The position numbers and the translations under genes were made by a program. Shown here one piece after another: positions 8,008-19,149 of a stretch of 45,496 nt of DNA (position 1 is its first letter; each line of letters starts with the position of its first letter). Under the pieces are notes generated by a model. The model saw only the letters and a program-made list of their open reading frames with translations. It was not told where the DNA came from and did not search any database. Origin of the DNA: Haloplanus vescus (GTDB lineage Archaea > Halobacteriota > Halobacteria > Halobacteriales > Haloferacaceae); NCBI RefSeq assembly GCF_900107665.1, contig NZ_FNQT01000001.1, forward strand, positions 1 to 45,496, written 5' to 3'.

Positions 8008-8042
8008 GTTTATTTCTCACTCTATTTTAGGCACGCCTAAAA
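8008..8042 (+). promoter_or_regulatory. TATA box and DtxR-like palindromic operator at the kinase start codon
   Basis: GTTTATT at 8008-8014 is a good TATA box for a leaderless start at 8042. The perfect 8-2-8 palindrome TTTTAGGCACGCCTAAAA (8025-8042) covers the expected initiation site and the A of the start ATG. It matches the TTAGG...CCTAA core of bacterial DtxR/IdeR iron boxes and recurs before the repeat-cupredoxin gene at 16 kb. A DtxR/SirR-type metal repressor is the likely binder. Confidence 0.6.
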
Positions 8043-9307
8043 TGGATGAATCGGCCGACCAGATTGCCGGGGCAGTGTTTCGCGCGATTACAGAGCGCGG
8101 CCACGAGGATGTCGAACGCGCTGTCGTCGACGCCTACGCCGACGCCGACGAGGGCGTTCTCTCGAATCGGGACGGTCTCTCTCGGACGATGCTTGCGGAG
8201 TTGCTCGATGCACTCGGCCGTCATCTCGACAGCAACGAACAGGTCGAGGTGCTCACGACGGCCGTCGAGCAGTTGGTCGATCGGTTCGGCACCATCATCG
8301 ACGCGGCGCCGGTTGCCATCTGTGCAATCGATGACGACGGGACGGTTCAGTTGTGGAACCCCGCCGCCGAGCGAACGCTCGGATACGACAAGTCGTCGAT
8401 TCTCGGGCGGCCGTTCGAGGTGGTGTGGGCCGACGACGAGACGACGTTCTCGGCGTGTCTGGAGCGTCTCCAGTCCGGCGAACGTCTCTCCGGCATCGAC
8501 ACGCGCCACCACCGCCCCGACGGGTCCCTCCTCGATACGCGGACGTGGGCCGCGCCCCTCGGTGACGACGCGGGTTCCGCGGGCGGCGCGACGTTCGTCG
8601 TCGTCGACGTGACCGAGCGACGCGGCCGCCAGCAGCGACTCTCCGTGCTCAACCGCGTCCTCCGGCACAACATCCGCAACGAACTCAACGTTGCGACGGG
8701 GCATCTGGACCGACTCGCGGCGCAGTTGCCCGAGGACGAGCAGAGCCTCCGCGTCGTCCGCGAGCGACTGGACGCCATCCTCGAACTGAGCGACACCGCC
8801 CACCGAATCGAGCAGGTCGCCGACGCCGACCGCGACGACACGGTGTCGTTCGACCTCACCACCGTTCTTGGTGACTGTCTCGACCGACTGCGCCGGGACG
8901 CCCCCGCGGCCGACGTGACGGCGACGCTCCCCGACCGCGCGCCCGTCGTCGGCCACGAACTCCTGCCCTACGCCTTCGAGAACGTCCTCGAAAACGCGGT
9001 CCAACACAACGACGCGGCCGCCCCGAGCGTGTCGGTCGACGTGTCACTCCCCGACGGCGAAGCCGACAGGGTCACCGTCCGCATCGCAGACAACGGGCCG
9101 GGACTCCCCCCGGTCGAACGGCAGGTCCTCCGGACCGCGGCGGAGACGCAACTCACGCACAGCACCGGATTGGGGCTGTGGCTCACCAACTGGATCGTTC
9201 GGGGGTCGAGCGGACGCATCGATGTCGACTGCACAGCTGGTGGGACGACCGTCGTCGTCGAACTCCCGGCGGCGACGCCGGCCACTCACTCCTCGACGAC
9301 GACCTGA
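8042..9307 (+). CDS. PAS-domain sensor histidine kinase
   Basis: The 421-residue soluble kinase has a helical N-terminus (1-75) and a PAS domain (about 78-192, DAAPVAICAIDDDGTVQLWN). Its dimerisation/phosphoacceptor segment is LNRVLRHNIRNELN, with His209, the haloarchaeal style of H-box. The HATPase domain has N-box FENVLENAVQHN (312-323), G1 DNGPG (350-354) and G2 GLGLW (376-380). No membrane helix or receiver domain is present and no response regulator lies beside it, so its signalling partner is unknown. The start is fixed by a leaderless promoter whose metal-box palindrome overlaps the ATG, suggesting iron- or manganese-dependent expression. The 3' end overlaps the convergent halocyanin gene by 22 bases. 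Confidence 0.92.
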   Translation: MDESADQIAGAVFRAITERGHEDVERAVVDAYADADEGVLSNRDGLSRTMLAELLDALGRHLDSNEQVEVLTTAVEQLVDRFGTIIDAAPVAICAIDDDGTVQLWNPAAERTLGYDKSSILGRPFEVVWADDETTFSACLERLQSGERLSGIDTRHHRPDGSLLDTRTWAAPLGDDAGSAGGATFVVVDVTERRGRQQRLSVLNRVLRHNIRNELNVATGHLDRLAAQLPEDEQSLRVVRERLDAILELSDTAHRIEQVADADRDDTVSFDLTTVLGDCLDRLRRDAPAADVTATLPDRAPVVGHELLPYAFENVLENAVQHNDAAAPSVSVDVSLPDGEADRVTVRIADNGPGLPPVERQVLRTAAETQLTHSTGLGLWLTNWIVRGSSGRIDVDCTAGGTTVVVELPAATPATHSSTTT

Positions 9308-9696
9308 CCCGCCATCCCCGCGCGCTCGTGCGGGATACAGAAGTAGCCGTAGGTGCCCGGCACCTCGAAGGTGTGGCTGTAGCGTTGCCCGTTTTCGAGT
9401 GCGCCGTGCATCCCGTCCCACGCCTCGCGCGCGGCCGTCTCTGACTCGTAACCGCCCGTCGCGAAGTAGTCGGCCTCCTCTGGGATGCTATTCTCGTACG
9501 CGGTGATGGAGTGGGCGCGGGCGCTGTTGTTGTACCAGACCACCTCGTCACCGACCGAGACGGTGATGGAGGCGGGTTCGAACGCCACCGCGGTCATCCC
9601 CACGTCGCCGTCGACGCCCCCGCCGAGGGCGGAGCATCCCGCCGTTCCCACCGCGAGGGCCGATCCGAGCGTCGCGAGCACTCGCCGTCTGCGCAT
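9286..9696 (-). CDS. Halocyanin-like small blue copper lipoprotein
   Basis: This 136-residue protein has a Tat-type lipoprotein signal: MRRRRVLATLG, a hydrophobic stretch and the lipobox GTAGC with Cys21. The cupredoxin domain has type 1 copper ligands His62, Cys120, His123 and Met128 (CIPHERAGM). It should sit on the outer face of the membrane and carry electrons or bind copper. The domain is strikingly close to the C-terminal domain of the 821-residue protein at 16.0 kb, with the same ligand spacing of 58 residues from His to Cys. The longer frame upstream is rejected because MRRRRVLATLG is the Tat start and CTATATT (9720-9726 complement) lies about 26 bases before it. It is convergent with and overlaps the kinase gene. 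Confidence 0.93.
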   Translation of the reverse strand: MRRRRVLATLGSALAVGTAGCSALGGGVDGDVGMTAVAFEPASITVSVGDEVVWYNNSARAHSITAYENSIPEEADYFATGGYESETAAREAWDGMHGALENGQRYSHTFEVPGTYGYFCIPHERAGMAGQVVVEE

Positions 9697-9792
9697 GTCC
9701 GCCTCTCGGGGTGCGGTGAATATAGGCGGCGTGGTTCGTCCATCGAAGGGGCGATATAAAGACGTAAATCCTCGGTGGCTGAGTGAGCCACT

Positions 9793-10470
9793 ATGCAACC
9801 GCGGTTCGTGGGACGCCTTGGACTCGCGGACGCCGTCACCGTCGGCAACGCGATGCTCGGCTTCCTCGCCGCCTTCGTCGCGACGCGTGACGCGGCGCTC
9901 GCGGCCCGAATCGTCCTGCTCGCGGCCGTCCTCGACGGGCTAGACGGCGTCATCGCGCGCCGGCGCGGCGGCACGCTCGCCGGCCCGTATCTCGACTCGC
10001 TCGCCGACGTGGCTTCCTTCGGCGTCGCGCCCGCGCTCCTCATCGCCTCGCGCGCGACGAACGCGTGGTCGTTCGGGGCCGACCCGGCCAAGTACGCGCT
10101 GGCGCTGCTTCTCCCCGCCATCTACGTCGCGATGGCGGTCACGCGCCTCGGTCTCTACACCGCGTACGACAGCGACGTGGCCGAGACGAAGGGCGTCCCC
10201 TCAACGCTCGCGGCGACGGTGCTCTCGGCGGGCGTCCTCGCGGGCTTTGTCGGCCCCGTGTTGCTCGTCGCGCTCTCGGGCCTGCTCGCGGCGCTCATGG
10301 TGACCCAGATTACGTACCCCGACCTCCACCCGCAAGACGCCCTCGTGATGGGCCTCGTCCAGGTGCTCGCCATCCTGCTTCAGGGGCGGCCGGGCGAGGT
10401 GTTCGCGTTCGCGCTCCTCTTCCTCTCGCTCGCGTATCTCGTCTTCGGCCCGCGATTCTACTGGACGTGA
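9793..10470 (+). CDS. pssA: CDP-alcohol phosphatidyltransferase, probable archaetidylserine synthase (PssA type)
   Basis: This 225-residue membrane enzyme carries the complete CDP-alcohol phosphatidyltransferase signature: D48-x2-D51-G52-x2-A55-R56, then G64-x3-D68-x3-D72. The conserved aspartates bind metal and CDP-archaeol. It has about six hydrophobic helices. By length and sequence it resembles the haloarchaeal PssA that makes archaetidylserine. PssA and PssD are known to be needed for lipid anchoring of PGF-CTERM proteins by archaeosortase in Haloferax, and a PGF-CTERM protein ends at the start of this window. The substrate serine is inferred; archaetidylglycerol or inositol-phosphate synthases of the same family are possible alternatives. 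A TATA-like GCGATATAAAG lies at 9751-9761. Confidence 0.85.
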   Translation: MQPRFVGRLGLADAVTVGNAMLGFLAAFVATRDAALAARIVLLAAVLDGLDGVIARRRGGTLAGPYLDSLADVASFGVAPALLIASRATNAWSFGADPAKYALALLLPAIYVAMAVTRLGLYTAYDSDVAETKGVPSTLAATVLSAGVLAGFVGPVLLVALSGLLAALMVTQITYPDLHPQDALVMGLVQVLAILLQGRPGEVFAFALLFLSLAYLVFGPRFYWT

Positions 10471-15891: not shown

Positions 15892-15909
15892 CTTTCGGCT
15901 GACCTAAAA
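15892..15909 (+). promoter_or_regulatory. Degenerate metal-box palindrome, distal copy
   Basis: CTTTCGGC-TG-ACCTAAAA keeps the 8-2-8 layout of the TTTTAGGC-N2-GCCTAAAA box, with six of eight left-half and seven of eight right-half matches. It sits just after the permease stop, about 121 bases upstream of the proximal box, so it may also be part of the permease terminator region. Confidence 0.3.
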
Positions 15910-15976: not shown

Positions 15977-15994
15977 ATTTTGGCTGGCCTAAAA
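15977..15994 (+). promoter_or_regulatory. Imperfect metal-box palindrome, middle copy
   Basis: ATTTTGGC-TG-GCCTAAAA has a perfect right half and two mismatches in the left half relative to the box at the kinase start codon. It lies 36 bases, centre to centre, from the proximal box, suggesting cooperative binding of two regulator dimers. Confidence 0.5.
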
Positions 15995-16012
15995 ATCGGA
16001 GGCCTTTTGTAC

Positions 16013-16030
16013 TTTTAGGCCGGCCTAAAT
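16013..16030 (+). promoter_or_regulatory. Metal-box palindrome just before the repeat-cupredoxin gene
   Basis: TTTTAGGC-CG-GCCTAAAT matches the 8-2-8 box at 8025-8042 in 15 of 16 half-site bases. It ends 3 bases before the ATG, downstream of a weak TATA-like CTTTTGTA (16004-16011), so a bound repressor would block initiation. Confidence 0.6.
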
Positions 16031-16033
16031 TCT

Positions 16034-18499
16034 ATGCAGCAAACCAGACGGAAGTTGTTACAGACGACCGGCGTCGCCCTCGGTGGCGTCGGGTTGGCTG
16101 GTTGCGGTGGGCAGAGCGGCACCGAAACCAGCGACACGACGGCGACAGATACCGAGACGAGCGAGCCCACGGCGACGGAGACGCCGTCGGCCGAGGCGTC
16201 GGCGGACACCGCGCTCGCCGCGGAGTGGAACACGATGCGCGCTCGCCTCCACGACGCGGTGGCGCTCGGTCGCGCCGGAGAGTCCAGCGCGGCGGCGACG
16301 CTCGTCGGCGACGTTTTCGCACGCTTCGAGCAGGCATCGGGCGAGTACGGCGCTCACGAGGGCCTGGAGTCGACGGACGAATCCGCCTACGAGTCCTTCG
16401 AGGAGCACCTCGGCGACGCTCGCTCGGCGTTCGAGAGCGGCGACGTGGACGCGGCCATCGGCGCCCTCGACGGCGCGGGCAACGAACTGGCGTCCGCCCA
16501 GCAGTCCCGAACCTCGGACTCTGTCACCGAAACCTTCTCGCTGCTCGTGTTCGCCTCCCGGATTCGGAACATCGACGCGCTGGCAACAGCGGGGCTGACG
16601 GACGAAGCGGCGACGGTGGGCGAGCGAGTCTTCGCCGACTTCGAACAGGCGCCCGCTCACGAGACGCTCGAATCCGCGGGCGACGGCTACCACGAGGAGT
16701 TCGAAACCCCGCTCAACGACGCCATCGAGGCGGCTAACGCTGGCGACGCCGACGGTGTCCACGAGGCGGCGCTCTCGGCGTCCGGCACCGCAGTCGAGGC
16801 GGCGTACGAACTCGTCTCCGAGCCGATTGCCGGCATCGGTCACCTCTCGCTGATGGCTGCGGTCGGCTTCGACGCCGAAATGGCCGCCAGCATGGGCGGG
16901 CCGGGCGTCGCCGCCGCTCACGCCGCGGGCCTGAACGCCTACCGCGTTCGCGTCCGTGACGCCGCGTGGCTCTACGACGCCGGCCAGCCAGAGGCTGCCA
17001 AGGCCGCCGCACAGTCCATCTTCCAGCACTTCGAGGGCGCTCGCGCCCACGAGGCACTGGAGGAGGCCAGCGAGTCCGCCTACGAGACGTTCGAACACGA
17101 CGGGCTGGAGGCGCTCATCACCGCCATCGAGGACGGCGACGACGAGGGCGTCGACAGCGCGGTGACGACTGTCCACGACGGCCTCACGACGGGCATCGAC
17201 GCGCTCGCGAGCGACGCGGCGCCGGTGCTCCAGTCCGGCTTCTTCCGCGCCCGCCTCGGCGACGCGCGCGAGCGCTACGACCGCGGCGAGGGCGAGGTGG
17301 CGGCCACCATCGCCGAGAACCTCTTCGCTCGCTTCGAGGAGAACGAGGGCGGCTTCCACGAGACGCTCGAGGAGACCAGCGAGGACCTCTATCACACCTT
17401 CGAGGAGGAACACCTCACCGCCCTCCCCGACGCCTTCCGCGCGGGCGACGACGAGGCCGTCGACACCCACCTCTCGGGTGCGACGGACGCCCTCGTCGAG
17501 TTCGAGGCGACCGCTGGCACGCCGCTCGCCAGCGGCGCCGCGGCGGCGTACATGACCGGACGGGCCGGCGACGCCGGCGTCCGAGCTGCGCTGGGTGACA
17601 CCGACCGCGCCGAGACGATTGCGAGCGATGCCTTCGCGTACTTCGAGGGCGGCGCCAACGGCTTCCACGAGGCCGTCGAGCACGCCAGCGAGGAGCGCTA
17701 CCACGCCTTCGAGGAGGCGCTCGGTGCCGTTCGCTCCGCGACGACGGGCGACGCCGACGCCTACGAGGCGGCGACGACGTTCGCCGACGAGGCGACCGCC
17801 GCCGTCTACGCCGTCGTCGAGAACGGTGGGAGCGGTGGCGACGTGAACGCCGCGCCCCTCGTGAGCGACGTGTTCGCCACCTTCGAGAACGCGCGTGTCC
17901 ACGAGGCGCTCGAAGCGGGCGACCACGAGACCTACGAGACGTTCGAGGGGGCGCTCTCGGACTACATCTCTGCGCTCGAAAGCGGCGAGAGTATTGATGC
18001 CGCCGGCGAACGGTTCGCGCAGGCGACCCGGAACGCGGGCTTCGCCGTCGCGGGTGCCATCGACCAGGCGCCCGAAATCTCCGCCGGCGGGAGCGGCGGC
18101 GAGAGCGGCGAGAGTGGTGAGACCGACCTCCAAGGCGGCCCGAACGTCGTCGAGGGCGTCCCGGACGACGCCGACCACGTCATCGATATGAATGCCGTGG
18201 CGTTCGACCCGGCCGAACTCACCGTCTCCGTCGGCGACACGGTGGCGTGGAGCCACGCTGGCGGTGAACCCCACTCCGTCACCGCCCTCGGTGACGGCAT
18301 TCCGGACGGGGCGTCCTACTGGGCGTCCGGCGGCTTCGAGTCTGAAGAAGCGGCACGGACCGGCTGGGAGAACGGCAAGGGTGCCGTCGCCTCCGGTCAG
18401 TCCTATGTCCACACCTTCGAAACGGCTGGTGAACACGCCTACGTCTGCATCCCGCACGAGGCGGCGGGTATGGAGGGAACCGTCGTCGTCGAGGAGTGA
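16034..18499 (+). CDS. Large Tat lipoprotein with six helical repeats and a C-terminal cupredoxin (DUF5059-like)
   Basis: The 821-residue protein opens with a twin-arginine signal, TRRKLLQTTG, and lipobox LAGC (Cys24). A Thr/Glu linker follows. Six helical repeats then each contain F-x-x-F-E, then H-E-x-[LV]-E, then Y-x(2-3)-F-E, with the conserved His at 108, 209, 339, 442, 545 and 623. After a Gly/Ser linker (about 684-700) comes a blue-copper domain with His747, Cys805, His808 and Met813. It should be anchored outside the cell. I recognise it tentatively as a haloarchaeal DUF5059/halocyanin protein. Three DtxR-like boxes precede it, so iron or manganese control is likely. The EfeO iron-uptake protein also combines a cupredoxin with a helical metal-binding domain, which makes metal capture a plausible role, by inference only. 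Confidence 0.85.
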   Translation: MQQTRRKLLQTTGVALGGVGLAGCGGQSGTETSDTTATDTETSEPTATETPSAEASADTALAAEWNTMRARLHDAVALGRAGESSAAATLVGDVFARFEQASGEYGAHEGLESTDESAYESFEEHLGDARSAFESGDVDAAIGALDGAGNELASAQQSRTSDSVTETFSLLVFASRIRNIDALATAGLTDEAATVGERVFADFEQAPAHETLESAGDGYHEEFETPLNDAIEAANAGDADGVHEAALSASGTAVEAAYELVSEPIAGIGHLSLMAAVGFDAEMAASMGGPGVAAAHAAGLNAYRVRVRDAAWLYDAGQPEAAKAAAQSIFQHFEGARAHEALEEASESAYETFEHDGLEALITAIEDGDDEGVDSAVTTVHDGLTTGIDALASDAAPVLQSGFFRARLGDARERYDRGEGEVAATIAENLFARFEENEGGFHETLEETSEDLYHTFEEEHLTALPDAFRAGDDEAVDTHLSGATDALVEFEATAGTPLASGAAAAYMTGRAGDAGVRAALGDTDRAETIASDAFAYFEGGANGFHEAVEHASEERYHAFEEALGAVRSATTGDADAYEAATTFADEATAAVYAVVENGGSGGDVNAAPLVSDVFATFENARVHEALEAGDHETYETFEGALSDYISALESGESIDAAGERFAQATRNAGFAVAGAIDQAPEISAGGSGGESGESGETDLQGGPNVVEGVPDDADHVIDMNAVAFDPAELTVSVGDTVAWSHAGGEPHSVTALGDGIPDGASYWASGGFESEEAARTGWENGKGAVASGQSYVHTFETAGEHAYVCIPHEAAGMEGTVVVEE

Positions 18500-18660
18500 A
18501 CTGACACGCGGCTTGCCCTGACCGCTACGACCACCCCGCCACCGTGGGCACGGTAACGTACACTCCCTCCACCCTTTTCGACGCACTCGCCACTCGCCAG
18601 CGACGGCGCCGCCGATACGGAACCGACAGGTTCTGGTCGCCGCCACTCCCAGAGCGAGGT

Positions 18661-19149
18661 ATGTATCGCCGAGGCCACTGGGGCGTCTCGCTGCTCGTGT
18701 TCGCCCCGGTCGGATTCGCACTCGTCAGTTTCGGCCGACCCACGCTCGCCGTCGCCGGCGGCGCCGCCATGCTCTGGCTATCGACCGTGCCCGACTGGGA
18801 CCACCGCCTCCCGCTCATCTCGCATCGCGGCCCCACCCACACCCTCGCGTTCGCACTTCTCGTCGGCCTCGTCGGCGCGGGCCTCGGCGCTGGCGTCGCG
18901 GAGGTGATTCCGGGTAGCCGGTCGACGCTCGTCGCCTTCGGCTTCGGTATCGGGGCGCTCGGCATCCTCGCACACCTCCTCGCGGACGCCCTGACGCCTG
19001 CGGGCGTCCCGTTGCTGTGGCCGCTCTCCGGCCGCGATTTCTCGGTCTATCTCACGCGCGCCGACAACACCATCGCCAACTACGCGCTCCTCGCTGTCGG
19101 CGTCTGCGCCACCGCTGTCGCCGCCGTCCTCGCCGCCCGGATGGCCTGA
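18661..19149 (+). CDS. YdjM/DUF457-type membrane-bound putative metal-dependent hydrolase
   Basis: This 162-residue membrane protein has four to five helices and the polar motifs of the YdjM (LexA-binding, DUF457) family: MYRRGHWGVSLL with a membrane-proximal His, PDWDHRLP, HRGPTHTLAFA, and HLLADALTPAGVPLLWP. The His/Asp set is thought to bind metal, and enzymatic activity is predicted but unproven. The longer frame upstream adds an Arg-rich segment with no family match, and GAGGT immediately precedes this ATG, so the shorter start is taken. It follows the repeat-cupredoxin gene by 161 bases; no shared promoter element is obvious. Confidence 0.85.
   Translation: MYRRGHWGVSLLVFAPVGFALVSFGRPTLAVAGGAAMLWLSTVPDWDHRLPLISHRGPTHTLAFALLVGLVGAGLGAGVAEVIPGSRSTLVAFGFGIGALGILAHLLADALTPAGVPLLWPLSGRDFSVYLTRADNTIANYALLAVGVCATAVAAVLAARMA

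Follow-up and report, generated by a model that had tools for sequence, protein, structure and literature searches.

A repeat-containing DUF5059 blue-copper lipoprotein of Haloplanus vescus as a candidate surface iron-binding protein

The window considered here, a stretch of 45,496 nucleotides from Haloplanus vescus, carries at positions 16034-18499 of the plus strand an open reading frame (ORF) whose translation is an 821-residue protein combining a DUF5059 region with a cupredoxin. A preliminary description of this DNA had called the protein DUF5059-like, and the Pfam match bears this out over the full length: DUF5059 (PF16502) spans residues 60-680 (E 2.9e-226; 753.5 bits against a cut-off of 25), with the profile covered end to end (1-619 of 619), and is followed by a Copper-bind domain (PF00127) at residues 716-820 (E 8.4e-16; 58.6 bits against a cut-off of 21.2). 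The nearest homologue, from Haloplanus ruber, shares 76% identity, and conservation was judged on a set of 23 homologues that are 47-76% identical to the window protein. A minus-strand ORF at 16058-18721 was set aside, since G+C-rich genomes often contain long antisense ORFs and homologues conserve the plus-strand protein from end to end.

At its N-terminus, the protein begins with a Tat signal and the lipobox LAGC (16034..16105, plus strand), Cys24 being the predicted lipidated residue. The twin arginines (R5, R6) and the lipobox residues A22, G23 and C24 are invariant in all 23 homologues, in keeping with the surface lipoprotein proposed earlier. A low-complexity linker connects the lipobox to the DUF5059 domain, and a second, flexible linker rich in Gly, Ser and Glu (residues 681-700; 18074..18133, plus strand; low pLDDT), which is His-rich in some homologues, leads to the copper domain. 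The DUF5059 homologues examined share the cupredoxin, the Tat lipoprotein signal and the promoter boxes described below, making the window protein an ordinary member of its family. Another member over the full length of PF16502 is HcpE (HVO_1228) of Haloferax volcanii, itself included among putative Tat lipoproteins (PMC6267482). The names clash between species: the DUF5059 halocyanin is hcpE in H. volcanii (HVO_1228; PMC9051519), where hcpG denotes HVO_2150 (PMC8305020), and hcpG in H. mediterranei (PMC9240420). In two genomes (G452, G436), DUF5059 shows up as two neighbouring matches, which may be copies that are frameshifted or in decay.

The C-terminal domain (residues 702-821; 18137..18496, plus strand) is a plastocyanin-type cupredoxin. 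Its type-1 copper ligands H747, C805, H808 and M813 are invariant in the 23 homologues, so that the complete His-Cys-His-Met set claimed for it holds, and the C-x2-H-x4-M arrangement has the spacing of plastocyanin. The domain scores below the cut-off of the halocyanin subfamily TIGR03102 (NCBIfam; 41.1 vs 93.8 bits) and has relatives among the small copper proteins encoded elsewhere in the same genome. One small blue-copper gene in the window (9286-9798, minus strand) encodes a product 55% identical to it. While halocyanins and plastocyanins (PF00127) thus resemble the C-terminal domain in their canonical ligand set, the DUF5059 protein differs from them by 620 additional residues of helical repeats and by its iron regulation.

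Within the DUF5059 region, the motif FE-x(4-12)-H-x-x-[LVI]-E-x(5-8)-Y-x(2-3)-FE occurs in six copies, whose key histidines lie exactly at the positions first reported (108, 209, 339, 442, 545 and 623), and when residues 59-690 were shuffled 20,000 times, only one shuffle contained even a single copy. Alignment of the segments of the 23 homologues revealed that the repeat extends beyond the motif to a whole unit of ~100 residues, with the consensus RxRLxDAxxLxxxG...AAxxAxxxFxxFE...HExLExxxxxxYExFExxLxxLxxA...GD; comparison of unit 1 with unit 4 by hhalign gave a probability of 99.1% (E 6.5e-19). For units 1, 3, 4, 5 and 6, the E, H, E, Y and E of the motif are kept in 22-23 of the 23 homologues, which upholds the idea of repeated His/Glu pairs, now at the level of duplicated units. 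The claim of six sites fares less well: the motif is present six times, but only five units are strictly conserved, whereas unit 2 is degenerate, its His209 column holding H in 17, Y in five and T in one of the 23 homologues. One homologue has lost unit 2 in part.

All units lie on the plus strand. Unit 1 (residues 54-161; 16193..16516) contains F98-E99, H108-E109-E112 and Y119-F122-E123 and is modelled by AlphaFold2 (AF2) with helices at 53-80, 84-100, 107-114, 116-135 and 138-159. The degenerate unit 2 (residues 162-262; 16517..16819; E204, H209, E213, E224) is separated from unit 3 by an extra helix (residues 263-290; 16820..16903) in which D280, G288 and G289 are invariant. Units 3 (residues 291-386; 16904..17191; E334, H339, E343, Y350, E354) and 4 (residues 387-494; 17192..17515; E435, H442, E446, Y453, E457) each possess a further invariant histidine, H296 and H479, respectively. 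Unit 5 (residues 495-600; 17516..17833) has E538, H545, E549, Y556 and E560, and unit 6 (residues 601-676; 17834..18061), which is without the first helix, has E618, H623, E627, Y634 and E638. A short natural form of DUF5059 made up of units 1, 2 and 6 only is found in three genomes (G380, G469 and G396), and the units therefore behave as modules. The short form of G380 (locus L027, 841-2352, minus strand) retains the promoter box, has Gln in place of the axial copper Met and possesses a linker rich in His and Asp.

Structure prediction, which the preliminary description had suggested as a check, returned chained helical bundles with high confidence (AF2 with nine sequences; pLDDT >90 over most of residues 53-680), and a separate run on units 4-5 was concordant (pLDDT 91.6, pTM 0.87). 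In the models, FxxFE sits at the C-terminal end of helix 2, HExxE forms a short connecting helix and YxxFE lies near the start of the next helix, a placement that would bring all four ligand candidates, and with them the FE and HE segments, to one end of the predicted bundle. Within HExxE, the His and the Glu (i,i+4) occupy a common helix face. The glutamates are under unusual constraint: Asp never appears in the 18 motif Glu columns, as compared with an average of 1.56 Asp in 34 other Glu-majority columns. They also point, on average, 84 degrees away from the hydrophobic face of their helix vs 134 degrees for other acidic positions in the same helices (Mann-Whitney p 2e-5), which places them at the seams between helices rather than in the core or at the surface. 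This indirect evidence from sequence and model makes the His/Glu units likely metal sites.

A known fold for the repeats was sought in vain. Foldseek searches of the PDB with the full model and with the two-unit model found no significant relative, the matches being generic helical bundles (catenin/vinculin-like or designed repeats); a PsbQ match reached a probability of 0.95 but an E of 1.9. Ferritin-like and haemerythrin-like families were likewise missing from both the Pfam matches listed for the 23 members and the PDB fold matches listed, so the profile check proposed for ferritin-like relatives came back empty.

The link to iron is stronger than the preliminary description suggested. Sites were scored against the pattern TTTAGGnnnnCCTAAA, of which the whole window contains four with up to two mismatches (0.08 expected by chance). 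A perfect DtxR-type box, TTTAGGCCGGCCTAAA, ends four bases 5′ of the ATG (16014..16029, plus strand) over the expected transcription start; a second, TTTTGGCTGGCCTAAA, with one mismatch, lies directly 5′ of a BRE/TATA-like element (15978..15993, plus strand); and a distal one, TTTCGGCTGACCTAAA, also with one mismatch, is found at 15893..15908 (plus strand) and is absent from some homologues. The BRE/TATA-like core promoter itself, CGGAGGCCTTTTGTAC, is assigned by its position ~22-37 bases 5′ of the ATG (15997..16012, plus strand), which would fit a leaderless transcript. All 25 homologous promoters have a box (one mismatch or none) 3-7 bases 5′ of the ATG, and 24 have a second one, which in 23 promoters is located between -37 and -42; the BRE/TATA-like sequence between the two recurs in homologues. 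Given this arrangement, a bound repressor would be expected to block both sides of the core promoter.

Scanning the organism's own genome with TTTAGGnnnnCCTAAA yielded 20 sites, 14 exact and six with one mismatch, as opposed to none for the reversed control. Most of the genes behind these boxes encode siderophore-type ABC transporters. Boxes head, among others, the genes of three Peripla_BP_2 lipoproteins (in one case with FecCD and ABC ATPase genes next in line), a substrate-binding protein gene with a BPD permease gene behind it, and genes for a cupin, a CARDB protein and an FAD oxidoreductase. No more than a few kb separate the largest group of boxes from a DtxR-like gene and a Dps-type ferritin gene. 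In an iron cluster (locus L052, 3275-13362; C1, ~120-130 kb), two boxes precede a BP-FecCD-ABC gene set, two a CARDB surface protein gene and one a second BP gene, followed by a DtxR-like gene and a Dps-type ferritin gene. Elsewhere, a two-domain multicopper oxidase gene of NirK size (L060, 1861-3015; C5) has a one-mismatch box 13 bases 5′ of its start. A few sites have no obvious iron link, namely those at a glycosyltransferase gene and at a histidine kinase gene in the window. The former is of the dolichyl-phosphate hexose transferase type, with a perfect box 31 bases upstream (L055, ~2578; C1, 586577). At the latter, a PAS/HATPase histidine-kinase-like gene (8026-9307) whose product has an N-terminal DUF7551 match, the perfect box TTTAGGCACGCCTAAA abuts the ATG (8042), which suggests an iron-responsive sensor gene; its 3′ end overlaps the convergent blue-copper gene at 9286-9798 by ~22 bases. 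The DtxR-like boxes noted at the outset are thus confirmed, one perfect and two with one mismatch, and their conservation and the box regulon of the genome support membership of the DUF5059 gene in a DtxR-type (Idr/SirR) iron regulon, in which the boxes would be the repressor's binding sites.

Published expression data from H. volcanii point in the same direction. HVO_1228, annotated as DUF5059, rose by log2 4.2 along with iucA, iucB, iucD and iron ABC genes upon endA knock-down (PMC7714728) and fell by log2 2.92 along with iucA and iron ABC genes, including that of an iron SBP, upon cas1/fen1 deletion (PMC9051519); this co-movement with siderophore genes is a correlation within two mutants. 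The DUF5059 protein is not named in the main text of the paper on the Hfx. volcanii iron-starvation proteome.

Across genomes, DUF5059 occurs in 42 of 195 haloarchaea (~1/5) and, in a sample of 393 genomes of the phylum, is restricted to the window's own order. The siderophore-synthesis family IucA/IucC is present in 61 of the 195, 22 of which also carry DUF5059; its enrichment among carriers (22/42 vs 39/153; odds 3.2; Fisher p 0.0013) disregards kinship. A strict tie to siderophore synthesis was rejected, IucA/IucC being absent from the H. vescus genome and 19 other carriers. Conserved operon partners of the DUF5059 gene were not found beyond the genus with two exceptions: in Natrinema hispanicum it is preceded by FecCD, ABC and two BP genes, and a similar set occurs in a Haloterrigena. 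Natrinema thermotolerans has an Nramp gene 2 kb downstream of its DUF5059 gene. Among other iron importers, FTR1 is missing from the H. vescus genome and from every DUF5059 carrier (393 genomes searched), its model also finding no match in H. volcanii among the controls, and profile searches detected FeoB in neither H. vescus nor H. volcanii; both possess Nramp. For H. volcanii, a route of Fe(II) uptake that is independent of siderophores and has no protein assigned to it has been described (PMC7407949).

The preliminary description had likened the layout of the protein to that of EfeO. A loose likeness to EfeO/EfeM of the EfeUOB ferrous uptake system stands: both are exported and iron-regulated and combine a cupredoxin with an all-helical bundle bearing conserved His and Glu residues. 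However, the domain order is reversed in the DUF5059 protein, and where EfeO/EfeM has one HxxE plus GEEDRY site, each of the five or six units here has an HExxE. The M75 motif is HxxE (PMC9174327), whereas in the DUF5059 motif H-E-x-[LV]-E the His and Glu are four apart. Nor is there a match to M75 (PF09375) among the Pfam matches listed up to E 10 for the 23 members, which answers the suggested imelysin/EfeM profile check in the negative, or in 197 genomes of the phylum; with the confident two-unit model, EfeM (7q1g) came only at rank 12 (E 1.4, TM 0.26). The FTR1/EfeU partner is also missing from all carriers searched. Pfam, genome scans and fold comparison revealed no homology to EfeO/M75 or FTR1, and EfeO-like working would apply by analogy at most. 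Fet3p-Ftr1p and FtrABCD offer another possible analogy, in that iron would be oxidised by cupredoxin copper at the surface during uptake, but the DUF5059 protein has a single type-1 copper domain without a multicopper centre, in a genome without the FTR1 permease.

We propose, with a probability of about 0.5, that the DUF5059 protein binds iron at the cell surface and that its copper domain transfers an electron as the iron is captured. When iron is plentiful, a DtxR-family repressor of the Idr/SirR type would sit on the two boxes bracketing the TATA element and the start and keep the gene off; iron starvation would release it and turn the gene on. The protein would then be exported folded via Tat and lipid-anchored at the outer face of the membrane, where each ~100-residue unit may hold one iron ion, five sites being well conserved and one degenerate, through the Glu of FxxFE, the His and Glu of HExxE and the Glu of YxxFE. 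The tethered type-1 copper would most likely take an electron from Fe(II), leaving Fe(III) held, and may pass it to the copper-based respiratory chain of the membrane before the cell's own ABC (or Nramp) importers take over the iron. From repressor and metal binding through the identity of the metal to electron direction and hand-over, these steps are ones that we infer. The direction of electron flow is a guess, with Fe(II) oxidation favoured because type-1 copper, at potentials a few hundred mV positive, is an oxidant of the Fe(II)-oxidising range.

If the electron ran the other way, reduction by the copper domain would release iron that the units had bound as Fe(III) or ferric chelates. Such a surface ferric reductase would suit oxic brine, where iron is mostly Fe(III), as well as the co-expression with Fe(III)-siderophore genes and the siderophore-type ABC genes adjoining in two genomes, yet we regard it as unlikely: with its positive potentials, type-1 copper is poorly suited to reducing chelated Fe(III), and IucA/IucC accompanies DUF5059 in just 22 of the 42 carriers, H. 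vescus not among them. Haem or a ferric siderophore might instead be the ligand of the helical units, with the redox domain tethered to a haemophore or receptor. The invariant His and Tyr of each conserved unit could serve as haem ligands, and siderophore-type binding proteins abound in the box regulon, but the three to four invariant Glu of each unit are better suited to a hard metal ion than to haem, and none of the genes controlled by boxes in the genome was recognised as serving haem uptake, making this reading quite improbable.

Equally improbable is a halocyanin-like electron carrier that spares iron, its helical part being a spacer or docking arm. Replacing iron by copper is a known starvation strategy, and the cupredoxin is intact and related to the small copper proteins of the genome; against this, a spacer would not be expected to keep its His and Glu across units with zero Asp substitutions, and haloarchaea already use small halocyanins when iron-replete. 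The bound metal could also be Mn, Zn or Cu, the protein acting as a copper chaperone or store or collecting Mn, and responding to iron solely because a DtxR protein regulates it. Studies of SirR in Halobacterium indicate that haloarchaeal DtxR-family proteins answer to Mn as well (PMC3600143), and the linkers of some homologues are His-rich; since the box-controlled genes mainly encode siderophore-type and Fe(III)-type ABC transporters and the Hfx co-expression set consists of iron genes, this is the reading to which we give least credence. Some points also count against iron capture by the DUF5059 protein: the gene is dispensable, as only 42 of 195 haloarchaeal genomes carry it, Nramp could serve as an Fe(II) route without it, the protein has no significant PDB relative, and the gene has, with two exceptions, no conserved neighbours beyond the genus.

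DUF5059 has so far been catalogued without an assigned function; what is new here is the evidence that links the family with iron, together with an account of its modular sites. A more specific and tentative version of the iron-capture reading, on which we would not bet at even odds, sees DUF5059/HcpE as a type of surface iron oxidase-collector not described before, in which one tethered type-1 copper feeds or empties a tandem array of five or six like mononuclear His/Glu iron sites and which, in haloarchaea without FTR1 and FeoB, takes the place of the FTR1/EfeO or multicopper-oxidase route. If true, a family of ~800-residue proteins in about one fifth of haloarchaeal genomes would gain a function, and a new form of copper-assisted iron capture, with many sites served by one copper, would become testable via HVO_1228 in a tractable model organism. 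It would also bear on siderophore-free iron uptake by haloarchaea such as the Fe(II) route of H. volcanii (PMC7407949).
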